A stretch of 64,000 bases of DNA from Panopea generosa (lineage: Eukaryota > Mollusca > Bivalvia > Adapedonta > Hiatellidae), in assembly GCA_029582155.1 (NCBI GenBank), contig CM055909.1, forward strand, positions 18,648,301 through 18,712,300. The letters are read 5' to 3'. This document shows, piece after piece, positions 17,726 to 64,000 of the stretch; position 1 is the first letter of the stretch, and the number at the start of each line of letters is the position of its first letter. A program made the translations under genes and the position numbers. The notes beneath the pieces were generated by a model, which saw only the letters and a program-made list of their open reading frames with translations, was not told the DNA's origin and did no database searches.

Positions 17726-18736
17726 TTAGTACCGGGTATGGCCACCGTGCTTGGTAATGACTTCCTGTATCCGAGATCGCATTGATCGGCAAAGTGTTCT
17801 GTACACCTGACGTGGAATGCGATTCCACTCTTTAACAAGTGCAGCAGTGAGCTCTTGTACGCTGGTAGCAGTGTTAGGACGTCGACATATTCTACTTCCC
17901 AACTCGTCCCACATGTGCTCTATAGGATTTAGATCTGGAGACAATGACGGTTATGCTAACACGGGAATGCCATGTGCGTTAAGGAAGCTCATGGTAACTC
18001 TTGCCCGATGAGGGGGCGCATTATCCTGTTGAAATGTCAACCGGTTATGTGCATGAAACAATGGCAATACACTGGGTGTAAGAATCTGGGTGATATACCG
18101 GTTGGCATTTAAATTCTCATAGCGAATTACCAGTTCTGACTTAAAGTCCCAGTTGATAGCCCCCCAAACCATCACGCCGCCACCACCGTAACGTTCATGT
18201 TCCTGTATGCAAACATCGGCGTAACGTTTGTTGCGCCTACGGTATATTCTTATCCTGCTGTCGGCATTGAACAAATTGAACTGGGACTCATCGGAAAACA
18301 CAACACTGTTCCAATTAGGACGTTGTACATTATTACATGCCCATTGTAGTCCCGCACGTCGATGTTGGGCGCTTAAAACGGGTACTTTCACAGGCCTCCG
18401 ACAACGTATCCCATAATCCCGCAAACGTTTGGTCACTGTGGTACGGTGAATTAGCCGACCCCTTGTACCGACAACTAAGTTGGCTGTCGATGATGCCGTC
18501 AGAAATCGATTATGGAGATGACGTTGACGGATATAAACGTCCTGATGTCTAGTGGTTGCACGCATTGCACCCGGTCGGGGTTGGTCTGAAACGGATCCAG
18601 TAGCGTTGAAGCGTTGAACAAGCCGAGATATCGTCGAACGGTTGACGTTTAAACGTCTAGCAACAACAGTTTGTGTTAATCCACCTTGCAAAAGTCCCAA
18701 AATTCGGTTTCGATTGTCATTATTTAACCTTGGCAT
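17726..18736 (-). pseudogene. Tc1/mariner-family transposase (DD34E), one internal stop
   Basis: Cuts and pastes its own element at TA sites; acts on DNA in the nucleus. The start is placed at the ATG giving MPRLNNDNRNRILGLL. The frame runs open further upstream, but only this start matches the usual Tc1 beginning. A helix-turn-helix region (QTVVARRLNVNRSTISRLVQ) lies at about residues 18-40. The catalytic acids are D in VVFSDESQFNL, D in FQQDNAPPHRA and E in LNPIEHMWDEL, with 34 positions between the last two, i.e. DD34E. A TAA at 17951-17953 stands where the family has Trp in the WPS.SPDLNP motif, so the protein would end just before the catalytic Glu. Length without the stop is ~336 codons, normal for the family. 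The gene ends 167 bp from the left TIR. Apart from the stop it looks intact, so inactivation is recent. Confidence 0.93.
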
Positions 18737-18808
18737 GTTGCATAATAAAAGTATCCAATATTTCAAACGATTTTCACATTCGCAATCGGAGAATACATGT
18801 CGAGGGAT

Positions 18809-19075
18809 CAGCGCAAAACTATTGTAACTCCATTTTTTCCAAAAAAATTTTTTTTGCATAAATTACTATAGTTTTACAATGTGCATCTTGTGTTAAAATT
18901 TGGTCCTGATATTTTGAATAATTTTGAAGATATTCACTTTTGGTGAAAATATTGTATCTCAAATACACTAATTCTTTAGCGCAAAACTATTGTAACATGA
19001 GTTACAATAGTTTTGCACCAAATAATATCTTGGAAACCTTTATTTATATTGGTGCAAAACTATTGTAACTTGAAT
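18809..19075. repeat. GCAAAACTATTGTAAC motif module, left
   Basis: The 16-bp word occurs forward at about 18813, forward then inverted at 18981-19015 (forming a hairpin with a short loop ATGA) and forward again at about 19053. The block FR-gap-F recurs in direct orientation at 23626-23716. Repeated words inside transposon ends often bind transposase. That role is inference here. Confidence 0.75.
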
Positions 19076-27395: not shown

Positions 27396-27838
27396 GAATC
27401 ACAGAATCAACTGAGACATAAAGACAGATACATTATTTTATTCCTCCATTCAGGGGAGCATTTAATACAATACAATCATTTAAACAGACAGTCGTATAAT
27501 CATTTGAACACAACATGATAAAAGTCAGCAAAATAGTGCAAAACAGCATATTATAATAATTGTAGAATTACATTAAATTGTACAGAATTGAATAATTAAA
27601 TTATAGTAGATAAACATGACAATACTTTATTATAATTTCGATTGTTATACATTGCAATATTTTCAGACCAAACCGATTTATCTAGATTAAGTTATAACAC
27701 ATCAAAGATAATATATGCCTTACCGAAAATAAAATTGAAACAATGCAATACAAGTTACTAATAGGTGAAATGTTATTTAGCATATGTTATAGCATTCGCC
27801 CGTTTTATACGTTTGTCTTACCGAAACTGAAAATGTAT
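27396..27838. other. AT-rich DNA to the left of the 44-bp array
   Basis: No gene or recognised repeat. Confidence 0.4.
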
Positions 27839-30800
27839 ATTGCACGTCACTCAGCAGACCTATACAGTTGCATACCTTGTATATCGTATGTCACACAGCA
27901 GACCTATACTGCTGCATACCTTGTATGTGGCCCGTCACACAGCAGACCTATACTGTTGCATACCTTGTATATGGGACGTCACATAGCAAACCTATACTGT
28001 TGCATACCTTGTATATGGCACGTCTCACAGCAGACCTATACAGCTGCATACCTTGTATATGGCACGTCACACAGAAGACTTATACTGCTGCATACCTTGT
28101 ATATGGCACGTCACAAAGCAGACCTATACAGCTGCATACCTTGTATATGGCACGTCACACAGAAGACTTATACTGCTGCATACCTTGTATATGGCACGTC
28201 ACAAAGCAGACCTATACAGCTGCATACCTTGTATATGGCACGTCACACAGCAGACCTATACTGCTGCATACCTTGTATATGGCACGTCTCACAGCAGACC
28301 TATACAGCTGCATACCTTTTATGCGGCACGTCACAAAGCAAACCTATACTGCTGCATACCTTGTATGTGACATGTCACTCAGCAGTCCTATATTGCTGCA
28401 TATCTTGTATGTGGCACGTCACACAGCAGACCTATACTGTTACATACCTTGTATGAGGCACGTCACACAGCATACCTATACTGTTACATACCTTGTATAT
28501 GGCCCGTCACACAACAGACCTATACTGTTGCATACCTTGTATGTGGAACACACAGATGACCTATACTGTTGCATACCTTGTATGTGGCACGTCACACAGC
28601 ATACCTATACTGCGGCATACCTTGTATATTGAACTTCACACAGCAGACCTATACTGCTGCATACCTTGTATATGGCATGCCACACAGCAGACCTTTACTG
28701 TTGTATACCTTGTATATGGCACGTCACACAGCAGACCTATACTGTTGTATACCTTGTATGTGGCACATCACACAGCATACCTATACTGCGGCATACCTTG
28801 TATATTGAACTTCACACAGCAGACCTATACTGCTGCATACCTTGTATATGGCACACTACACAGCAGACCTTTACTGTTGTATACCTTGTATATGGCACAT
28901 CACACAGCAGACATATACTGTTGCATACCTTGTATGTGGAACACACAGCAGACTTATACTGTTGCATACCTTGTATGTGGCACCTCACACAGCAGACCTA
29001 TACTGCTGCATACCTTGTATATGGAACTTCACACAGCAGACCTATACTGATGCATATCTTGCATATGGCACGTCACACAGCAGACCTATACTGCTGCATA
29101 CTTTGTATATGGCACGTCACACAGAAGACCTTTACTGTTGCATACCTTGTATATGGCACGTCACACAGCAGACCTATGCTGCTGCATACCTTGTATATGG
29201 AACTTCACACAGCAGACCTAAACTGCTGCATACCTTGTATATGGCACGTCACACAGCAGACCTTTACTATTGCATACCTTGTATATGGCACGTCACACGG
29301 CAGACTTATACTGCTGCATACCTTGTATATGGAACTTCACACAGCAGACCTATACTGTTGCATACCTTGTATGTGGCACGTCACACAGCAGACCTTTACT
29401 GTTGCATATCTTGTATATGGCACATCACACAGCAGACCTTTACTGTTGCATACCTTGTATATGGCACGTCACACAGCAGACCTATACTACTGCATACCTT
29501 GTATATGGAACTTCACGCAGCAAACCTTTACTATTTCATACCTTGTATATGGCACGTCACACAGCAGACCTATACTGCTGCATACCTTGTATGTGGCACG
29601 TCACAAAACAGACCTACACTGCTGCATACCTTGTATATGGCACGTCACACAGCAGACCTTTACTGTTACATACCTTGTATATGGCACGTCACACAGTAGA
29701 CATATACTGCTGCATACCTTGTATGTGGCACGTCACACAGTAGACCTATACTGTTACATACCTTGTATATGGCACGTCACACAGTAGACCTTTACTGTTA
29801 CATACCTTGTATATGGCACTTCACGCAGCAGACCTTTACCATTACATACCTTGTATATGGCACGTCACACAGCAGACCTTTTCAATTACATACCTTGTAT
29901 ATGGCACGTCACACAGCAGACCTTTACCATTACATACCTTGTATATGGCACGTCACACAGCAGACCTATACTGCTGCATACCTTGTATATGGCACGTCAC
30001 ACAGCAGACGTTTACTATTACATACCTTGTATATGGCACGTCGTCACACAGCAGACCTTTACCATTACATACCTTGTATATGGAACGTCACACAGCAGAC
30101 CTATACTGCTGCATACCTTGTAGATGGCACGTCACACAGCAGACCTTTACTATTACATACCTTGTATATGGCACGTCACACAGCAGACCTTTTCAATTAC
30201 ATACCTTGTATATGGCACGTCACACAGCAGACCTTTACCATTACATACCTTGTATATGGCACGTCACACAGCATACCTATACTGCTGCATACCTTGTAGA
30301 TGGCACGTCACACAGCAGACCTTTACTATTACATACTTAGTATATGGTACATCGTCACACAGCAGACCTTTACCATTACATACCTTGTATATGGCACGTC
30401 ACACAGCAGACCTATACTGCTGCATACCTTGTATATGGCACGTCACACAGCAGACCTTTACTATTACATACCTTGTATATGGCACGTCACACAGCAGACC
30501 TATACTTTTACATACCTTGTATATGGCACGTCACACAGCAGACCTTTACTATTACATACTTTGTATATGGCACGTCACATAGCAAACCTATACTATTACA
30601 TACTTAGTATATGGTACTTCGTCACACAGCAGACCTTTACCATTACATACCTTGTATATGGCACGTCACACAGCAGACCTATACTGCTGCATACCTTGTA
30701 TATGGCACGTCACACAGCAGACCTTTACTATTACATACTTAGTATATGGTACGTCGTCACACAGCAGACCTTTACCATTACATACCTTGTATATGGCACG

Positions 30801-32598
30801 TCACACAGCAGACCTATACTGCTGCATACCTTGTATATGGCACGTCACACAGCAGACCTTTACTATTACATACCTTGTATATGGCACGTCACACAGCAGA
30901 CCTATACTTTAACATACCTTGTATATGGCACGTCACACAGCAGACCTTTACTATTACATACTTTGTATTTGGCACGTCACACAGCAAACCTATACTGCTG
31001 CATACCTTGTATATGGCACGTCACACAGCAGACCTATACTGTTACACACCTTGTATATGGCACGTCACACAGCAGACCTTTACTGTTACATACCTTGTAT
31101 GTGGCACGTCACACAGTAGACCTATACTGTTACATACCTTGTATATGGCACGTCACACAGTAGACCTTTACTGTTACATACCTTGTATATGGTACTTCAC
31201 GCAGCAGACCTTTACCATTACATACCTTGTATATGGCACGTCACACAGCAGACCTTTTCAATTACATACCTTGTATATGGCACGTAACACAGCAGATCTT
31301 TACCATTACATATCTTGTATATGGCACGTCACACAGCAGACCTATACTGCTGCATACTTTGTATATGCCACGTCACACAGCAGACGTTTACTATTACATA
31401 CCTTGTAAATGGCACGTCGTCACACAGCAGACCTTTACCATTACATACCTTGTATATGGAACGTCACACAGCAGACCTATACTGCTGCATACCTTGTAGA
31501 TGGCACGTCACACAGCAGACCTTTACTATTACATACCTTGTATATGGCACGTCACACAGCAGACCTTTTCAATTACATACCTTGTATATGGCACGTCACA
31601 CAGCAGACCTTTACCATTACATACCTTGTATATGGCACGTCACACAGCAGACCTATACTGCTGCATACCTTGTAGATGGCACGTCACACAGCAGACCTTT
31701 ACTATTACATACTTAGTATATGGTACGTCGTCACACAGCAGACCTTTACCATTACATACCTTGTATATGGCACGTCACACAGCAGACCTATACTGCTGCA
31801 TACCTTGTATATGGCACGTCACACAGCAGACCTTTACTATTACATACCTTGTATATGGCACGTCACACAGCAGACCTATACTTTTACATACCTTGTATAT
31901 GGCACGTCACACAGCAGACCTTTACTATTACATACGTTGTATATGGCACGTCACACAGCAAACCTATACTATTACATACTTAGTATATGGTACGTCGTCA
32001 CACAGCAGACCTTTACCATTACATACCTTGTATATGGCACGTCACACAGCAGACCTATACTGCTGCATACCTTGTATATGGTACGTCACACAGCAGACCT
32101 TTACTATTACATACTTAGTATATGGTACGTCGTCACACAGCAGACCTTTACCATTACATACCTTGTATATGGCACGTCACACAGCAGACCTATACTGCTG
32201 CATACCTTGTATATGGCACGTCACACAGCAGACCTTTACTATTACATACCTTGTATATGGCACGTCACACAGCAGACCTATACTTTTACATACCTTGTAT
32301 ATGACACGTCACACAGCAGACCTTTACTATTACATACTTTGTATTTGGCACGTCACACAGCAAACCTATACTGCTGCATACCTTGTATATGGCACGTCAC
32401 ACAGCAGACCTATACTGTTACACACCTTGTAAATGGCACGTCACACAGCAGACCTTTACTGTTACATACCTTGTATATGGCACGTCACACAGCAGACCTT
32501 TACTTTTACATACCTTGTATATGGCACGTCACACAGCAGACCTTTACTATTACATACCTTGTATATGGCACGTCACACAGCAGACCTATACTGTTGCA
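27839..32598. repeat. 44-bp minisatellite (~108 units) with a 1376-bp higher-order duplication
   Basis: Unit GTATATGGCACGTCACACAG + CAGACCTATACTGCTGCATACCTT, 44 bp. Variable positions are concentrated in the middle (TATACTGCTGCA, TTTACCATTACA, TTTACTATTACA, TTTTCAATTACA). A 3-bp CGT insertion (CGTCGTCAC-type) marks some units. These markers, at 30040, 30351, 30617 and 30753, recur exactly 1376 bp later at 31416, 31727, 31993 and 32129, so a ~1.4-kb block was duplicated. The period is not a multiple of three, so all three plus frames stay open by turns. The Cys/Tyr-rich translations are artefacts of the repeat. Each unit contains GTGACGTGCC on the minus strand, a CRE-like word. Confidence 0.95.
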
Positions 32599-36344: not shown

Positions 36345-37375
36345 GGCAAATTTTTACTTCGATAATGGTGCAGCTATCCCAAACAAGGTATGAAATATAA
36401 ATCTGATTGAGTGTTGAGCGTTTTAGCTTGAATTTTAACATTTGCATTGAACCTAAAACTGTTGCTGCTGAAGAAGAGATTTTCAATATATGTTCGTGCC
36501 AGGAACCGTCTTTACTTAAAGTAACACCAAGATGCTTGTGGTGCTGAACAGAAACTAGATCAGTTCCATCGAAAATTAATTTTGGAAGTTATTTTTTGGC
36601 CAGCGAAAAAGTTACTACTTGTGTTTTAATGGATTAAAGTTTACCAGCCATTGTCTTGACTAAGCAGAAATCTTTTGTAAATCAGAATTAAGGATTGTTT
36701 CAATTGGTCTTGTGTTAAATGATGATACTGCAAGTCTAGTAGTACTTACTAAAGATTCCGCTATATCATTGACATAAATTAAGAATAAAAGAGGGTCTAG
36801 TACCGAGCCTTGAGGAACACCGGCATTTATATATTTAGTTTCTGAAAAAGATGAGCATACAAATATTCTTTGCATTCTATTATTTAGATAATTTTCAACC
36901 CATTTGTTAAGTTTGCCTGTAACTCCATACTGACGCAGTTTCTGTAATAGACCTGAATGCCAAACTCTGTCAAATGCTTTTGATATATCACAAAAAACTA
37001 TACTGGTGGTTTTCTTTTCATCAAATGCCTTATTAATTTGGTGGTACATGTCAATTAACTGATATATTTTTGGATGAACAGGAAGAAACCCAGACTGTTT
37101 TTTATAAATCAGGTAATTTAAATGTTAATAATTGTATAAATGCTTGAATATTACTGTTTAGATGACCTTGCCAATACAACTAATTAATGAAATAGGTCTA
37201 TAGTCTTTAGCACCCTTTTTAGATAATGGCATTATATTTGCTAATTTTAAACAATTTGGGTATGTGCTTTCTTGTAGAGACCTATTAAAAATGATGCAAA
37301 GTGGTCGGCATAGTGTTTTAGCTGTTTCTTTTAACATATGATGACTTATTTCGTCTTGGCCGCTAGCTTTTTTAA
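36345..37375 (-). pseudogene. LINE reverse transcriptase remnant (CR1/Jockey-like)
   Basis: Minus-strand reading in order: KASGQDEISHHMLKETAKTL, LANIMPLSKKGAKDYRPISL, a frameshift, QSGFLPVHPKIYQLIDMYHQ, then VFCDISKAFDRVWHSGLLQK (motif A, catalytic Asp present) and AGVPQGSVLDPLLFLIYVND (motif B). Next, where F/YADD should be, TTRLAVSSFN, so the second catalytic pair is lost through a small shift. The thumb-like KHLGVTLSKDGSWHEH follows. Stops and shifts near 37140, 36720 and 36560 disable it. The central open part (36660-37049) is ~129 codons. Motif style fits CR1/Jockey-type elements. The clade is inference. Confidence 0.85.
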
Positions 37376-53364: not shown

Positions 53365-56300
53365 GAGGATTTGAGTTGATATACAACAGAGTTAAATGCG
53401 GCGAGTCTTTATTGGCGCGGATTAGAGTTGATAACTAACAGAGTTTAATGTGCCGCGTCTTATGTCAGTGCTTTAGTTAAGTTCATAACTAATATATGTT
53501 TCTGTGCCGCGTCTTCTGTCGGTGCATCAGTTAAGTTCATAACTAATATATGTTTCTGTGCCGCGTCTTCTGTCGGTGCTTCAGTTTAGTTCATAACTAA
53601 TATATGTTTCCGTGCCGTGTCTTGTGTCGGTGCTTTAATTAAGTTCATAACTAATAACTAATATATGTTTCTGTGAGGCGTATTCTGTCGGTGCTTTAGT
53701 TAAGTTCATAACTAATATATGTTTCTGTGCCGCGTTTTCTGTCGGTGCTTCAGTTAAGTTCATTACTAATATATGTTTCTGTGTCACGTCTTCTGTCGGT
53801 GCTTCAGTTAAGTTCATAACTAATATATGTTTTCGTGCCGCGACTTGTGTCGGTGCTTCAGATAAGTTCATAACTAATATATGTTTCTGTGCCGCGTCTT
53901 CTGTCGGTGCTTCAGTTAAGTTTATTACTAATATATGTTTCTGTGCCGCGTCTTCTGTCGGTGCTTCAGTTAAGTTCATTGCTAATATATGTTTCTGTGC
54001 CGCGTCTCTGTCTGTGCTTCAGTTAAGTTCATAAATAATATATGTTTAGTTAAGTTCATTACTAATATATGTTTCTGTGCCGCGTCTTCTGTCGGTGCTT
54101 CAGTTAAGTTCATTACTAATATATGTTTCTGAGCTGCGTCTTCTGTCGGTGCTTTAGTTCAGTTCATTACTAATATATGTTTCTGTGTCGCGTCTTCTGT
54201 CGGTGCTTCAGTTAAGTTCATAACTAATATATGTTTCTATGCCGCGTCTTCTGTCGGTGCTTCAGTTTAGTTCATAACTTATATAAGTTTCTGTGCCACG
54301 TCTTCTGTCGGTGCTTCAGTTAAGTTCATAACTAATATATGTTTCCGTGCCGCGTCTTCTGTCGATGCTTTAGTTAAGTTCATAACTAATAACTAATATA
54401 TGTTTCTGTGCCGCGTTTACTGTCGATGCTTTAGTTAAGTTCATTACAAATATATGTTTCTGTGCCGCGTCTTCTGTCGGTGCTTCAGTTAAGTTCATAA
54501 CTAATATATGTTTCTGTGCCACGTCTTCTGTCGGTGCTTCAGTTAAGTTCATTACTAATATATGTTTCTGTGCCGCGTCTTGTGTCGGTGCTTCAGTTAA
54601 GTTCATTACTAATATATGTTTCTATGCCACATCTTCTTTCGGTGCTTCAGTTAAGTTTATTACTGATATATTTTTCTGTGCCGCGTCTTCTGTCGGTGCT
54701 TCAGTTAAGTTCATTACTAATATATGTTTCTGTGCCGCGTCTTCTGTCAGTGCTTCAGTTAAGTTCATAACTAATATATGTTTAGTTAAGTTCATTACTA
54801 ATATATGTTGATGTGCCGCGTCTTCCGTCTGTGCTTCAGTTAAGTTTATTACTAACATATGTTTCTGTGCCGCGTCTTCTGTCGGTGCTCCAGTTAAGTT
54901 TATTACTAATATATGTTTTTGTGCCGCGTTTCTGTCGGTACTTCAGTTTAGTTCATAACTAATAAAATGTGTCTGTGTCGCGTCTTCTGTCGGTGCTTCA
55001 ATTTAGTTCATAACTAATATATGTTTCCTGTGCCGCGTCTTATGTCGGAGCTTCAGTTAAGTTCATAAATAATATATGTTTCTGTGCCGCGTCTTCTGTC
55101 GGTGCTTCATTTAAGTTCATAACTAATATATGTTTCTATGCCGAGTCTTCTGTCGGTGCTTCAGTTAAGTTCATAACTCATATATGTTTAGTTAAGTTCA
55201 TTACTAATATATGTTTTTGTGCCGCGTCTTCTGTCGGTGCTTCAGTTAAGTTCATAACTAATATATGTTTCTGTGCCGCATCTTCTGTCGGGCTCCAGTT
55301 AAGTTCATTACTAATATATGTTTCTGTGCCGCGTCTACTGTTAGTGCTTTAGTTTAGTTCATTACTAATATATGTTTCTGTGTCGCGTCTTCTGTCGTTG
55401 CTTCAGTTAGGTTCATAACTAATATATGTTTCTGTGCCGTGTCTTCTGTCGGTGCTTCAGTTAAGTTCATTACTAATATATGTTTCTGTGCCGCGTCTTC
55501 TGTCGGTGCTTTAGTTAGGTTCATAACTAATATATGTTTCTGTGCCGTGTCTTCTGTCGGTGCTTCAGTTCAGTTCATTACTAATATATGTTCTGTGCCG
55601 CGTCTTGTGTCTGTGCTTCAGTTAAGTTCATAATTAATATATGTTTAGTTAAGTTCATTACAAATATATGTTTCTGTGCCGCATCTACTGTCGGTGCTTC
55701 AGTTATGTTCATAACTAATATATGTTTCTGTGCCGCATCTTCTGTCGGTGCTTCAGTTAAGTTCATAACTAATATATTTTTCTGTGCCGCGTTTTCTGTC
55801 GGTGCTTCTGTTAAGTTCATTACTAATGTATGTTTCTGTGCCACGTCATCTGTCGGTGCTTGAGTTAAGTTCATTACTAATATATGTTGATGTGCCGCGT
55901 CTTCCTTCTGTGCTTCAGTTAAGTTCATAACTAATAAAATGTGTCTGTGCCGCGTCTTCTGTCAGTGCTTCATTTTAGTTCATAACTAATATATGTTTTC
56001 GTGCCGCGTCTTCTTTCGTTGCTTCAGTTAAGTTCATAAATAATATATGTTTCTGTGCCGCGTCTTCTGTCGGTGCTTCATTTAAGTTCATAACTAATAT
56101 ATGTTTCTGTGCCGCGTCTTCTGTCGGTGCTTCAGTTAAGTTCATAACTAATATATGTTTAGTTAAGTTCATTACTAATATATGTTTTTGTGCAGCGTCT
56201 TCTGTCGGTGCTTCAGTTAAGTTCATAACTAATATATGTTTCTGTGCCGCGTCTTCTGTCGGTGCTCCAGTTAAGTTCATTACTATTATATGTTTCTGTG

Positions 56301-59300
56301 TCGCATCTTCTGTTGGTGCTTTAGTTTAGTTCATTACTAATATATGTTTCTGTGTCGCGTCTTCTGTCGTTGCTTCAGTTAAGTTCATAACTAATATTGG
56401 TTTCTGTGCCGTGTCTTCTGTCGGTGCTTCAGTTAAGTTCATTACTAATATATGTTTCTGTGCCGCGTCTTCTGTCGGTGCTTTAGTTAGGTTCATAAAT
56501 AATATATGTTTCTATGCCGTGTCTTCTGTCGGTGCTTCAGTTAAGGTCATTACTAATATATGTTCTGTGCCGCGTCTTGTGCCTGTGCTTCAGTTAAGTT
56601 CATAACTAATATATGTTTAGTTAAGTTCATTACTAATATATGTTTCTGTGTCGCGTCTTCTCTCGGTGCTTTAGTTAAGTTCATAACTAATATATGTTTC
56701 TGTGCCGCGTCTTCTGTCGATGCTTCAGTTAAGTTCATAACTAATATATATTACTGTGCCGCTTCCTCTGTTGGTGCGTCAGTTTAGTTCATTACTAATA
56801 TATGTTTAGTTAAGTTCATTACTAATATATGTTTCTGTGCCGCGTCTTCTATCGGTGCTATAGTTAAGTTCATAACTAATATATATTTCTGTGCTGCATC
56901 TTCTGTCGGTGCTTCAGTTAAGTTTATTACTAATATATGTTTCTGTGCCTCGTCCTTTGTCATTGCTTCAGTTAAGTTCATTACTAATATATGTTTCTGT
57001 GCCGCGTCTTCTGTCGGTGCTTCATTTAAGCTCATAACTAATATATGTTTTGTTAAGTTCATAACTAATAACTAATATATGTTTCTGTGCCGCGTCTTCT
57101 GTCGGTGCTTGAGTTAAGTTCATAACTAATATATGTTTCTGTGCCGCGTCTTCTGTCGGTGCTTCAGTTAAGTTCAAAACTAATATATGTTTCCGTGGCG
57201 CGTCTGGTGTCGGTGCTTTAATTAATTTCATAACTAATAACTAACTTATGTTTCTGTGCCACGTCTTCTGTCGGAGCTTTAGTTAAGTTCATAAATAATA
57301 TATGTTTCTGTGCCACATCTTCTGTCGGTGCTTTAGTTAAGTTCATAACTAATATATGTTTAGTTAAGTTCATTACTGATATATGTTTCTGTGCGGCGTC
57401 TTCAGTCGGTGCTTCAGTTAAGTTCATAACTGATATATGTTTTTGTGCTGCGTCTTCTGTCGCTGCTTCAGTTCAGTTCATAACTAACATATGTTTTCTG
57501 TGCCGCGTCTTCTGTCGGTGCTTTAGTTCTGTTCATAACTAATATATGTTTCTGTGCCGCGTCTTCTGTCAGTGCTTCAGTTAAGTTCATTACTAATATA
57601 TGTTTCTGTGCCGCGTCTTGTGTCAGTGCTTCAGTTAAGTTCATAACTAATATATGTTTAGTTTAGTTTATTACTAATATATGTTTCTGTGCCGCGTCTT
57701 CTGTCAGTGCTTTAATTAAGTTCATAACTAATATATGTTTCTGTGCCGCGTCTTCTTTGGGTGCTTCAGTTAAGTTCATAACTAATATATATTTCTGTGC
57801 CGCGTCTTCTGTCGGTAGTTCAGTTTAGTTCATTACTAATATATGTTTAGTTAAGTTCATTACTAATATATGTTTCTGTGCCGTGTCTTCTGTCGGTGCT
57901 ATAGTTAAGATCATAACTAATATATATTTCTGTGCTGCATCTTCTGTCGTTGCTTCAGTTAAGTTTAATACTAATATATGTTTCTGTGCCTCGTCTTTGT
58001 CGGTGCTTCAGTTAAGTTCATTACTAATATATGTTTCTGTGCCGCGTCTTTTGTCGGTGCTTCAGTTAAGATCATTACTAATATATGTTTCTGTGCCGCG
58101 TCTTTTGTCGATGCTTCAGTAAAGCTCATACCTAATATATGTTTAGTTAAGTTCATAACTAATCACTAATATATGTTTCTGGCGCCGCTTCTTCTGTCGG
58201 TGCTTCAGTTAAGTTCCTAACTAATATATGTTTCCAGGCCGCGTCTTGTGTCGGTGCTTTAATTAATTTCATAACTAATAACTAATATATGTTTCTGTGC
58301 CGCGTCTTCTGTCAGTGCTTCAGTTAAGTTCATAACTAATATATGTTTCTGTGACTCGTCTTCTGTCGGTGCTTCATTTCAGTTCATTTACTAATATATA
58401 TTTCTGTGCCGCGTCTTCAGGTCCGTTGCTTCAGTTTAGTTCATAACTAATATATGTTTCTGTGCTGCGTCTTCTGTCGGTGCTTCAATTAAGTTCATAA
58501 CTTATATATGTTTCCGTGTCGCGTCTTGTGTCTGTGCTTTAGTTAAGTTCCTAACTAATTACTAATATATGTTTCTGTGCCGCGTCTTCTGTCGGTGCTT
58601 GAGTTAAGTTCATAACTAATATATGTTTCTGTGCCGCGTCTTCTGTCGGTGCTTCAGTTAAGTTCATTACTAATATATGTTCTGTGCCGCGTCTTGTGTT
58701 TGTGCTTTAGTTAAGTTCATAATTAATATATGTTTAGTTAAGTTCATTACAAATATATGTTTCTGTGCCGCATCTTCTGTCGGTGCTTCAGTTAAGTTCA
58801 TAACTAATATATGTTTCTGTGCCGCGTTTTCTGTCGGTGCTTCTGTTAAGTTCATTACTAATGTATGTTTCTGTGCCACGTCATCTGTCGGTGCTTCAGT
58901 TAAGTTCATTACTAATATATGTTGATGTGCCGCGTCTTCTTTCTGTGTTTCAGTTAAGTTCATAACTAAAAAATGTGTCTGTGCCGCGTCTTCTGTCAGT
59001 GCTTCATTTTAGTTCATAACTAATATATGTTTCCGTGCCGCGTCTTATGTCGTTGCTTCAGTTAAGTTCATAAATAATATATGTTTCTGTGCCGCGTCTA
59101 CTGTCGGTGCTTCAGTTAAGTTCATAACTAATATATGTTAAGTTAAGTTCATTACTAATATATTTTTGTGCCGCGTCTTCTGTCGGTGCTTCAGTTAAGT
59201 TCATAACTAATATATGTTTTCGTGCCGCGACTTGTGTCGGTGCTTCAGATAAGTTCATAACTAATATATGTTTCTGTGCCGCGTCTTCTGTCGGTGCTTC

Positions 59301-59497
59301 AGTTAAGTTCAAAACTAATATATGTTTCCGTGGCGCGTCTGGTGTCGGTGCTTTAATTAATTTCATAACTAATAACTAACTTATGTTTCTGTGCCACGTC
59401 TTCTGTCGGAGCTTTAGTTAAGTTCATAAATAATATATGTTTCTGTGCCACATCTTCTGTCGGTGCTTTAGTTAAGTTCATAACTAATATATGTTTA
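53365..59497. repeat. 54-bp minisatellite (~110 units), truncated by an assembly gap
   Basis: Unit GTTAAGTTCATAACTAATAT + ATGTTTCTGTGCCGCGTCTT + CTGTCGGTGCTTCA, 54 bp. The leftmost units (53365-53470) are diverged. A 27-bp-deleted form (ATATGTTTAGTTAAGTTCAT) recurs through the array. The period of 18 codons gives minus frames with MNLTEAPTEDAAQKHILV and plus frames with VKFITNICFCAASSVGAS. No frame survives more than ~115 codons, so it is not a gene. Multi-unit blocks are repeated: 57022-57427 returns at +2135 (59157 to the gap), and 55439-55633 returns at +972. Confidence 0.95.
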
Positions 59498-59997
59498 NNN
59501 NNNNNNNNNNNNNNNNNNNNNNNNNNNNNNNNNNNNNNNNNNNNNNNNNNNNNNNNNNNNNNNNNNNNNNNNNNNNNNNNNNNNNNNNNNNNNNNNNNNN
59601 NNNNNNNNNNNNNNNNNNNNNNNNNNNNNNNNNNNNNNNNNNNNNNNNNNNNNNNNNNNNNNNNNNNNNNNNNNNNNNNNNNNNNNNNNNNNNNNNNNNN
59701 NNNNNNNNNNNNNNNNNNNNNNNNNNNNNNNNNNNNNNNNNNNNNNNNNNNNNNNNNNNNNNNNNNNNNNNNNNNNNNNNNNNNNNNNNNNNNNNNNNNN
59801 NNNNNNNNNNNNNNNNNNNNNNNNNNNNNNNNNNNNNNNNNNNNNNNNNNNNNNNNNNNNNNNNNNNNNNNNNNNNNNNNNNNNNNNNNNNNNNNNNNNN
59901 NNNNNNNNNNNNNNNNNNNNNNNNNNNNNNNNNNNNNNNNNNNNNNNNNNNNNNNNNNNNNNNNNNNNNNNNNNNNNNNNNNNNNNNNNNNNNNNNN
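59498..59997. other. Assembly gap (500 N)
   Basis: Exactly 500 N, a conventional placeholder. It cuts the 54-bp array on its left. The sequence on the right is unrelated, so true array length and what lies between are unknown. Confidence 0.98.
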
Positions 59998-60615
59998 AAA
60001 CTCCATTTCGCACTTTTCGCAGATTTTCGAGCTAAAGAATTAAACTTTTCACAATGTCTGTAACATAATTAAAACCAAACCTTTATTAAAGTAATTATTT
60101 ATTTAAATTAACTTAACAATAAATAGCAATGTTATTACTCAATTTCGCACTTTACATTAGAAACTCCATTTCGCAATTTACCCATTGATCTCCATTTCGC
60201 ACTTTACATACGGATCTCCATTTCGCACTCGATGTTTGAGCCATGGTATTAAACTTTTCACAATGTATCCTGTGTCTGTGTTATTTAAATCAAATCTTTA
60301 TTGAATTAATTTATTTTTGTTGTTTTAACGAAGCTGAATTATATTTGATAGCTATATCTATGTTAGTATAATTATAACGAGTATCGATATTGCTAATATT
60401 ATAATTATATATGTGTGGGAATTAACGATTAATTTTGACTTTTTTTTAACTTGACACATCAACCATATTATCATACATCAGTAATAGCATTTATATACGT
60501 GTTTAGTTGTTTTATTTAAGAATCAAAGCAAAGTAGCAATTTCATATCTCATTTCGCTATTTACACTCCATTGCACTCCATTTCGCAATTTACACTCCAT
60601 TTCGCATTTTAGTCC
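59998..60615. repeat. Spaced repeats of CTCCATTTCGCACTTTACAT
   Basis: About nine copies of CATTTCGCA(C/A)TTTA with CTCC before it, at 60001, 60142, 60163, 60190, 60220, 60548, 60581, 60597 and others, irregularly spaced. A longer ~240-bp unit (TTAAACTTTTCACAATGT, then AAATC or AACCAAACCTTTATT) occurs twice (60040 and 60249). It could be the subterminal repeat region of the Ulp1-PHD transposon that follows. Confidence 0.6.
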
Positions 60616-60757: not shown

Positions 60758-61496
60758 TCCGATGACTGGTGGTTAAAATTGTATGACCTTAAATTATAGG
60801 ATAAACATGACATATCAAACTGTTAATGGTTAAACGATAAACATATGTCAGCAGTTAATATAGATGAGAAAAACAAATGGAATATTCAGAAAACTTTTAT
60901 ACGCTAAAATAGAACCTGCTTGCCAAATTCACTTTAACGACTCTAATCATTGGACGATGAGTTTTAAAACATCTTCCAACAGCGACTTCATTTACTATAT
61001 AAACAGTTCCGGAGAAAATATGAAAGACATATATTTAAACGTAAAAATTCAACTGTCACAAATATACACAACGCTTAATGATACATTTATTAACGTTAAA
61101 ATTCCCAGAGTTCAACAACAGCCCAATTCCTTTGATTGTGGATTATTTGCGATTGCGAATGTAGTAGAGTTTTGTCATTCATCCCTTTCATTTAATTTTC
61201 GAAACATATATATTGTACCAGTTATGTGCCAGCATTTTATAAATTGCCTTGAAAGTGGTAAAATGACACCTTTTCCAAAGGAACCCAAGCGCGGAAGAAA
61301 TTTAAGTCTTGTGTGCTTCAATCCCAAAGTTATAAACATCCAATAATGATGCCACTGCAGAATGCCAAATTTTGTTGACAATCGCATTTCATGTCAGAAT
61401 TTTAAATGTAAGCAATGGTACCATTATCAATGTGTAAATCAAAATAACTTGAAATTCTGGAATTGTACGTCGTGCTTAAATGAAAATGAAATATAG
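60758..61496 (+). pseudogene. Transposon-borne Ulp1/SENP-like (C48) protease plus PHD finger, broken
   Basis: Ulp1-type cysteine proteases cleave SUMO-like tags. PHD fingers usually read histone tails. Reading in order: DDWWLKLYDLKL (60764-60799), then stops TAG and TAA, then WLNDKHMSAVNI (60827-60862), the classic C48 substrate-side motif. A 1-base shift leads to a 160-codon frame from 60864: KIEPACQIHFNDSNHWTMSF holds the catalytic His (NHW), and PNSFDCGLFAIANVVEFC the oxyanion Gln region and catalytic Cys. The usual catalytic Asp after the His is replaced (IYYINSS has Asn). TAA TGA at 61344-61349 end it, yet the same frame continues CHCRMPN, then KCKQWYHYQCV and FWNCTSC to TAG at 61494, a PHD finger. 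Ulp1-PHD fusions occur in animal DNA transposons. The transposon end lies 0.85 kb downstream. Confidence 0.8.
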
Positions 61497-62351: not shown

Positions 62352-62625
62352 GATACAAATATTGGACAGTCTTTGTGAACGGCGTATTTTCATTCGGAGA
62401 TGTTCATTTATTTAAAATGTAAACACGCAAACTTCGAGGATCTTTTGTGAAAACCAACATTTAACAATTAATAATGGCAGAAAAAGAACAGGTTGAGTTT
62501 TTTTACTACAAATTTAATTAATCAATTCACACATACATCCAGGGACATACAAAAAAATCACTAATCCAGTGTAAAAGCGTCTGTCCACCCATGAAACAAA
62601 ACTTTTCTTGTAAAAGTCATACGTG
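62352..62625. other. Spacer; possible tiny first exon at 62474-62491
   Basis: ATG at 62474 in a fair context (AATAATGG) reads MAEKEQ and meets CAG|GTTGAGT at 62491, a plausible donor. With only six codons this is suggestive at best. Confidence 0.2.
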
Positions 62626-62703
62626 TGTAGTGAATGTACATAGGTCACTTACAACAGCCTCGCTGTTAAGCTAGCTTTTATGGCGACATGTTTGAAGTGC
62701 ACT

Positions 62704-62765
62704 GACTGTATTGGAAGTTAAGCAATGAAGTACAGGGTGAGTACTTGGACGGATGACCGCAGTCA
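62704..62765 (+). other. 5S rRNA-like segment in LTR 1
   Basis: TTGGAAGTTAAGCAATGAAG and GTGAGTACTTGGACGGATGA correspond to the A-box/C-box region of 5S rRNA (GGAAGCTAAGC ... GTTAGTACTTGGATGGGAGACC). The upstream part (GGCGACATGTTTGAAGTG, CTGACTG) is weakly 5S-like. Confidence 0.65.
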
Positions 62766-62980
62766 CTTTAATGGCAACGAGGATTAACTTTCGAACCTAT
62801 GTCTGCACGAATCTCTCTTTCCTTGGGATACGGCCAGGAACTGTGGGGAGCCACAGACTGTGCAGTTGGGGCTAAGTCCTAAAAGTTAAAGAGGGGAGGA
62901 GTGTAGTGAATGTACATAGGTCACCTACAACAGCCTCGCTGTTAAGCTAGCTGTTTTAGCCACATGGTTAAAGTGCACTG

Positions 62981-63040
62981 ACTGCATTGGAAGTTAAGCA
63001 ACAAAGTACAGGGTTAGTACTTGGATGGGTGGCTGCTGTC
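62981..63040 (+). other. 5S rRNA-like segment in LTR 2
   Basis: TTGGAAGTTAAGCAACAAAG followed by GGGTTAGTACTTGGATGGGT. The 16-base TTAGTACTTGGATGGG (63014-63029) is identical to the conserved core of animal 5S rRNA as I know it. Not a functional 5S gene: the middle and 3' parts diverge. Confidence 0.7.
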
Positions 63041-63048
63041 TCTTTACA

Positions 63049-64000
63049 TGTGGAATTGATGAGATGGACCACTGAACTACGCATGACAGCTCCAAATGAT
63101 AAAATTGTTTTACTCAGTCATCTCTACAGTGTCGGGGAAAGTAAACAAGTAACATGGTGCCAGTCACTCAATGAGCTGTCATGTTATTATGGTTGAGAAG
63201 TGCACAATACCATCAAATTAAGAATTGCCGGCAACATACCACACTTTGTTCTTGTTGATGTTTGGTCAGAATTTTTGGGAATGACCTGGCACACAGTCTT
63301 AACATATTCAGTTCATCATGAATAGTTTTTAATAGCAATAGTGCAATTCGCCCTCTCAACAATTTCACGTATCGTGTGTGATGGTCATTAAGGGACAGGT
63401 GTAAAACCTGGTGGTAGTGTTAAATTTAAGATTTTTAGAAGGAGTAGCTGGCGGTGCATACTAATTCTTCATTCATTAACAAATTTTAAAAATGTTTAAT
63501 ACCATTTAAAAGCTCAGAATATCTAGTTTCTGAAACTGAAAAGATAAACAAAATCCATTATCAAATGAATGAGATACGGACAGTTAAAATGAACACATCA
63601 TGGCGACTAAATTTACGCCATATTTTTCGCTTGAAAACCTGGCGGTACCCTTTAACTTTTTTGTTTATTATTGGAAATTCAATTTTTTATACGTCTATGT
63701 AAGTAACAATGTAGTTTAAGAAAAGCTTAAGTTATTAAAAATCGATCAAGTATTACGGAAGATACACTCTTACAAAATACATACTTAAAATGTAATATTT
63801 CGCAATAAATTTTGCTGACGTAAAAACCACGCGGTACCACTTAAAATCTTTATTTATATTTTTATTTTTATTTGCTTTACATGCTTGTAATGCTGAAGCT
63901 CTGTAGTTTTCTGTGACATATAGAAAATTAAAATCGGATAAGAAATAAAGATGTTACAAAGTGATGAACTTGAGCAATTATTTTAGTACAAAAATGTGTC
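63049..64000. other. Right-edge DNA with a thrice-repeated ACCTGGCGGTACC-like word
   Basis: AAAACCTGGTGGTAGTGTTA (63402), AAAACCTGGCGGTACCCTTT (63634) and AAAACCACGCGGTACCACTT (63824) mark a degenerate repeat of ~190-230 bp. No gene recognised. The plus-strand frame 62987-63196 starts inside LTR 2 and is chance. Confidence 0.4.

Follow-up and report, generated by a model that had tools for sequence, protein, structure and literature searches.

A dispersed TRIM-type LTR element with 5S rRNA promoter sequence in its LTRs in the bivalve Panopea generosa

A 421-bp element near the end of a 64,000-nt stretch of the Panopea generosa genome (contig CM055909.1; hereafter the window) is a genuine TRIM-type LTR element with 5S rRNA promoter sequence in each LTR. 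The traits of a TRIM are all present: a short LTR pair, a short non-coding interior, a primer-binding site (PBS), a polypurine tract (PPT) and a short target-site duplication. We consider it likely that this 5S-promoter TRIM is transcribed, by inference, by RNA polymerase III (Pol III) and moved by the enzymes of another element.

Anatomy of the window copy

The element occupies positions 62626-63046 of the window and is an old copy of a dispersed family. Its features are as follows.

62622-62625, no strand: left target-site duplication CGTG, imperfect (3/4 bases match the right CATG)
62626-62770, plus strand: 5' LTR, 145 bp, TGTAG...CTTTA (direct-repeat comparison and duplication test)
62676-62679, plus strand: TTTT (LTR nt 51-54), a candidate Pol III terminator (TTTT count)
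62714-62760, plus strand: 5S promoter block of the 5' LTR (LTR nt 89-135, corresponding to host 5S nt 48-94), 37/47 identical
62771-62901, plus strand: non-coding interior, 131 bp (sequence reading)
62772-62784, plus strand: primer-binding site, 12/13 complementary to the 3' end of tRNA-Ser(GCT)
62888-62901, plus strand: polypurine tract AAAGAGGGGAGGAG, 14 bp (sequence reading)
62902-63046, plus strand: 3' LTR, 145 bp, diverged from the 5' LTR by 11.7%
62990-63036, plus strand: 5S promoter block of the 3' LTR, 38/47 identical to host 5S
63047-63050, no strand: right target-site duplication CATG, imperfect (3/4 against the left CGTG)

The first-pass annotation had described two direct repeats starting with TGTAGTG, adjoined by a primer site and a purine tract, and all of these were seen: the repeats begin at 62626 and 62902 (88% identical), the primer-site sequence TGGCAACGAGG lies at 62772 and the purine tract at 62888-62901. 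Several of its measures required correction: the repeats, given as 146/147 bp within a 423-bp element, are 145 bp long; the interior is indeed non-coding, at 131 rather than 130 bp; and the PBS does follow the first repeat, with a single A (62771) intervening. A 5S core had been reported in each repeat, and 5S-like sequence is present in both; the exact string TTAGTACTTGGATGGG has a single occurrence in the whole stretch (63014, in LTR2), its LTR1 counterpart being the diverged TGAGTACTTGGACGGA. The LTR end was placed at CTTTA, two bases inside the earlier end, because of the 4-bp duplication pattern: with this end exact 4-bp duplications were obtained at 22 of 29 distinct insertion sites, and with ends shifted by -2, -1, +1 and +2 at 0, 2, 0 and 0 of the 29 respectively. 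The window copy is shorter than most, with typical copies ~431 bp in total and an interior of ~141 bp.

The remainder of the window holds further repeats and coding remnants: a 44-bp minisatellite (27834-32598; ~108 copies) that contains several long open frames overlapping one another; a 54-bp minisatellite array with higher-order periods (53426-59496), followed by an N stretch within 59353-60068 (500 N in the window); a Tc1-type transposase reading frame (17951-18862, minus strand; HTH_Tnp_Tc3_2, E 1.4e-11); a reverse-transcriptase fragment (36660-37124, minus strand; RVT_1, E 1.1e-17); and an Ulp1-like cysteine protease frame (60864-61346, plus strand) that scored 20.9 bits against a Pfam cut-off of 20.7.

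Copies, insertion sites and forms of the family

A genome search with the element yielded 1705 first-look candidates, of which the best 48 were scored; these 48 fall in 40 loci, all of which were read. The 40 loci have identical outer ends, or truncated or tandem versions of them, and grouping by flanks resolved them into 29 distinct insertion sites. Flanks are shared by thirteen loci (one pair common to nine, another to four), and these thirteen multiplied within larger repeats. The TRIM is carried inside a larger repeat at L030, L031, L033, L037, L039, L046, L047, L049 and L054, which have one flank pair in common.

The 22 exact 4-bp duplications among 29 distinct sites compare with 4/812 among mismatched flank pairs (cross-pair control), three or four of the four bases match at 26/29 sites, and exact 5-bp duplications were found at 0/29. 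In the 1.47-Gb assembly the LTR-PBS junction, the PPT-LTR junction and the LTR start (first 23 bases) had at least 150, 251 and 475 exact matches respectively, lower bounds that miss copies without the exact string, and the reversed-pattern control gave 0 for each. Copies are spread across many chromosomes and contigs, away from the 5S array on contig C2.

A second set of 60 loci, 20 from each of the three junction lists, brought the total read to 100. The PBS list gave six loci with two complete LTRs, three tandem and 11 incomplete; the PPT list gave two complete and 18 others; and the LTR-start list gave seven complete solo LTRs, two complete elements and 11 others, the solo share being biased upward as these loci were picked for having no second LTR start listed nearby. 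Exact 4-bp duplications flank four of the seven solo LTRs (L097 and L098 have identical flanks). Of the 21 two-LTR entries in the second set, only nine show an exact 4-bp duplication, and seven of these have flanks in common. Some of the 21 are tandem forms with a deletion, in which the real element end is located beyond the one used. A longer relative was suspected at L066-L069, L088 and L089 from different sequence after LTR2; it was rejected, being a deleted tandem form. Locus L038 is a tandem array with seven LTR matches. The first-pass annotation had proposed looking for constant LTR boundaries in many copies, target duplications of 4-5 bp and solo LTRs; constant boundaries, duplications of 4 bp and solo LTRs were found.

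Among 26 distinct two-LTR copies, divergence between the LTRs of a pair is 4.1-13.8% (median 7.25%), which places the window copy (11.7%) among the most diverged.

The 5S block in the LTR

Host 5S genes were located with Rfam: 46 of 47 scored matches are on C2. At C2:1137561-1163509 (L058) the 5S genes stand in groups of three to five, separated by genes for U1 snRNA; one 9-kb piece has fifteen 5S and five U1 matches. Linkage of 5S and U1 snRNA genes is known from bivalves, although no bivalve paper on this point came up in the literature searched. A muscle myosin fragment of the host is most similar to 3i5f, a squid myosin, followed by several scallop entries, with arthropod and vertebrate myosins behind them. 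Both observations agree with a molluscan host, and would agree with other lophotrochozoans too, among them nemerteans.

As the first-pass annotation had led us to expect, the LTR could be aligned with the host 5S gene: LTR nt 89-135 match 5S nt 48-94 over 47 bp, gap-free and with the box spacing kept. Alignment scores of the LTR matches in the 40 loci have a median of 62 (range 38-72; 54 and 58 for the window LTRs), and all exceed the maximum of 31 reached by 1000 simple shuffles of the best-scoring LTR; thus the likeness to 5S is beyond chance. In 52 LTRs of the 26 distinct copies, the majority base equals host 5S in 41/47 columns.

The six differing columns (LTR 103, 104, 106, 107, 109 and 110; 5S nt 62, 63, 65, 66, 68 and 69) are confined to one 8-column stretch between the cores of box A and box C. 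We take the box limits in 5S numbering to be 50-64 for box A, 67-72 for the intermediate element and 80-97 for box C. With these limits, the majority sequence retains box C as far as nt 94, G70-G71-T72 and the core of box A, and the changes affect the last bases of box A and some of those in the intermediate element.

Such alterations would suit a TRIM that is transcribed by Pol II and whose 5S block is a relic without function, as would the variability among copies, which is not lower in the 5S block (0.054) than in the first 88 LTR bases (0.042); by this copy-level measure no selection on the block was seen. The relic reading is nevertheless improbable in our judgement: the box spacing is retained without a gap, and all six host-5S differences cluster between the box cores, an arrangement with a chance of 2.6e-6 if the stretch had been named beforehand (the stretch was picked out only after the fact, which weakens this figure).

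The LTR upstream of the block gave p values of 0.03-0.25 against 5S nt 1-47 in seven copies, above 0.05 in six of them, so that the 5S content of the LTR is in practice only the promoter part. At its gathering score the Rfam 5S model reported nothing in the window, and in four better copies it reported nothing up to E = 5, which counts against a function of the block.

SINE3 elements also have 5S heads (PMC10886601), and some copies of the present family are tandem, which would be compatible with a SINE3, a 5S pseudogene or a tandem repeat of the 5S cluster that never replicated through LTRs. Several lines of evidence make this extremely unlikely: i) the 5S block is internal (LTR nt 89-135), not terminal; ii) LTR pairs, PBS, PPT and 4-bp duplications recur; iii) copies are scattered over many contigs and lie outside the C2 array; iv) among the 100 loci read there was no full-length single-repeat copy with a SINE tail, nor were copies found only in 5S clusters or with inconsistent boundaries, patterns that the first-pass annotation had named as evidence against an LTR element. 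SINE3 elements lack paired LTRs, PBS and PPT. The trait in common is the 5S-derived promoter, and the LTR pair, PBS and PPT set the present element apart.

Reverse-transcription signals and the primer tRNA

In most copies the interior starts with A followed by TGGCGACGAGGAT, the complement of the last 13 nt of the host tRNA-Ser(GCT) including CCA; the window copy has TGGCAACGAGGAT. The tRNA-Ser(GCT) search pattern occurs at 24 places with at most one mismatch, and ARAGORN, run on four loci, assigned tRNA-Ser(gct) in three (in one of the three the patterned place was called tRNA-Gln, and the adjoining gene tRNA-Ser). The 100 loci contain 88 TTTAATGG junctions; the match to the tRNA is exactly 13 nt long at 39 of them, 15 nt at one, 19 nt at one and 12 nt or shorter at 47, the 39/88 being inflated by 20 loci that had been selected for an exact PBS match. 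The PPT AAAGAGGGGAGGAG is identical in 20 of the 26 copies.

The L041 junction reads TGGCGACGAGGATGGGAT followed by TAACTTT, which is what would result if reverse transcription had copied 18 nt of the tRNA end, stopped before A58 and realigned via the terminal GGAT of the copy; m1A58 is the usual stop of reverse transcription. In the TRIM copy L146 the tRNA match extends over 18 nt, after which the sequence jumps to the interior. Matches of 18 or 19 nt are footprints indicating the tRNA that primes reverse transcription.

Search for an autonomous driver

The first-pass annotation had suggested an autonomous Gypsy or Copia partner, and none was established. The twenty loci of the PBS list, taken from the 100 LTR-PBS junction matches listed out of 150, all belong to the TRIM, either as ordinary copies or with deletions. 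When the PBS was extended to 17 nt complementary to the tRNA, six places were found: two (L041 and C12:16679586) are TRIM junctions, L146 is a TRIM copy as noted, and L143-L145 have an 18-nt tRNA match and are not TRIMs (L145 is a Gypsy element).

In the Gypsy family of L145, a site of 18 nt for tRNA-Ser(GCT) begins after a single base beyond the LTR, and seven pairs of complete LTRs were found at distances of 4.6-4.7 kb. One piece of another copy encodes the RNase H domains RT_RNaseH and RT_RNaseH_2, and a Gag-like piece of L145 matched no Pfam family. As a driver of the TRIM this family was rejected: 5-bp duplications, read by eye, flank 7/7 copies, and the purine tract differs in all six copies where it was read. 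Since duplication length is set by the integrase, the 5-bp duplications make the L145 family an unlikely driver despite the same primer.

A pattern of TACA plus PBS occurs at six places, of which two were read. One of them, L168, has a 13-nt tRNA-Ser(GCT) site followed by a Gag-like frame; among 46 matches to its LTR no pair was found 3-10 kb apart. Viral contigs had 0 matches to two patterns. Separately, at C6:69049129-69050530, nt 1-76 of the L168-type Gypsy LTR are tandemly repeated at ~118-bp spacing, possibly an LTR-derived satellite.

Our best guess is that the driver would be a Gypsy-type element, because the animal families of Helenus combine 4-bp duplications with Gypsy-like primer sites (PMC10886601).

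Proposed life cycle and possible transcript

In the cycle that we propose, TFIIIA/TFIIIC and Pol III would read the 5S block of the 5' LTR, with transcription starting upstream of box A; given the spacing of a 5S gene, the start would be near LTR nt 42. An autonomous element, probably of Gypsy type, would supply the enzymes that reverse-transcribe this short RNA from a tRNA-Ser(GCT) primer, and the product would be inserted by an integrase producing 4-bp duplications. Because the promoter would sit within the transcribed portion of the LTR, every new copy would inherit it.

TTTT is the minimal Pol III stop. In the 26 copies TTTT begins at LTR 49-55 in 25/26 first LTRs and 23/26 second LTRs, and elsewhere in these elements it occurs only five times, one being the same site displaced by an insertion. 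An RNA that begins in the 5' LTR and stops at the 3' LTR's TTTT would include both PBS and PPT and have a ~13-nt repeat at its ends. Against the Pol III reading stands the TTTT of the 5' LTR, ~10 nt past the predicted start, which the polymerase would need to pass if TTTT stops Pol III.

Novelty and meaning

In the literature searched (Repbase and supplements lay outside it, so an entry in a database only is possible), no molluscan LTR element carrying 5S sequence was found; the carriers described there are Cassandra of plants and Ajax of two nemerteans (PMC10886601). A 2026 meeting report (PMC12859917) mentions Helenus and Ajax, in the portion seen, without a new host, and the portion seen of PMC10294476 held nothing relevant for four terms. 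The presence of 5S promoter sequence in an animal LTR element, as first proposed from this DNA, is borne out. It is not the first animal case: Ajax precedes it, and the kind has already been proposed as TRIMp3 (PMC10886601).

At somewhat less than even odds, the family may represent one more independent capture of 5S sequence after Cassandra and Ajax, this time in molluscs, primed by a tRNA of its own, tRNA-Ser(GCT), and served by a separate integrase partner. The element's RNA might then form a complete Pol III unit starting at ~LTR nt 42 and stopping at the TTTT (51-54) of the 3' LTR, with only the ~13-nt terminal repeat left for strand transfer. A bivalve case with another primer and duplication length suggests that LTR elements gained a 5S promoter more than once, and the question of repeated acquisition becomes testable across mollusc genomes. 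Moreover, such elements disperse Pol III promoter sequences and 5S look-alikes through the genome.

Comparison with known elements

TRIMp3 elements are TRIMs with a Pol III promoter in the LTR (PMC10886601), and the present element has this structural trait, namely small-RNA-gene promoter sequence, here a predicted promoter, in each LTR. Helenus, found among others in Pteriomorphia bivalves, is a tRNA-promoter TRIM (PMC10886601): both have a Pol III-type promoter in the LTR, tRNA-derived there and 5S-derived here.

The closest comparison is with Ajax, the 5S-LTR TRIM of two nemerteans (Kojima 2024; PMC10886601), which has only the promoter part of 5S in its LTR, is 421 or 434 bp long, makes 5-bp duplications and has a tRNA-Leu primer site. 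The two have in common the TRIM form, promoter-only 5S, a PBS matching a tRNA 3' end, a PPT and a length of 421-434 bp. These likenesses (421 bp, typically ~431, for the present family) would be expected if the family belonged to the Ajax lineage, whether the host is a nemertean not recognised as such or some other animal. We regard such membership as very unlikely, as Ajax differs in its 5-bp duplications (here exact 4 bp at 22/29 sites and exact 5 bp at 0/29) and in its tRNA-Leu primer (here tRNA-Ser(GCT), 13 nt exact). By primer and duplication length the present element is thus distinct from Ajax as described.

Cassandra of plants resembles the present element in its 5S promoter in both LTRs, non-coding interior and tandem forms. 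However, its 5S core of ~70 bp lies within 25-75% of the LTR (PMC10853983) and its total length is 565-860 bp (PMC10886601), whereas the block here is 47 bp long at LTR nt 89-135 of 145, i.e., at 61-93%. The family biv-TRIM (PMC6934838) is, like the present element, a bivalve TRIM with PPT, solo repeats, tandem arrays and no driver found, but has terminal repeats of 202-218 bp, an interior of 77-80 bp and no clear PBS, in contrast to the LTR of 145 bp and interior of 131 bp (~141 bp in most copies) measured here. The conserved TGATCCCAAAGGAC of biv-TRIM before a GGGGAGA tract had, as a combined pattern, 0 matches in the whole genome, and the terms "5S rRNA", "5S rDNA" and "polymerase III" are absent from the biv-TRIM main text (PMC6934838). 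Thus the present element is distinct from both biv-TRIM and Cassandra by measured structure.
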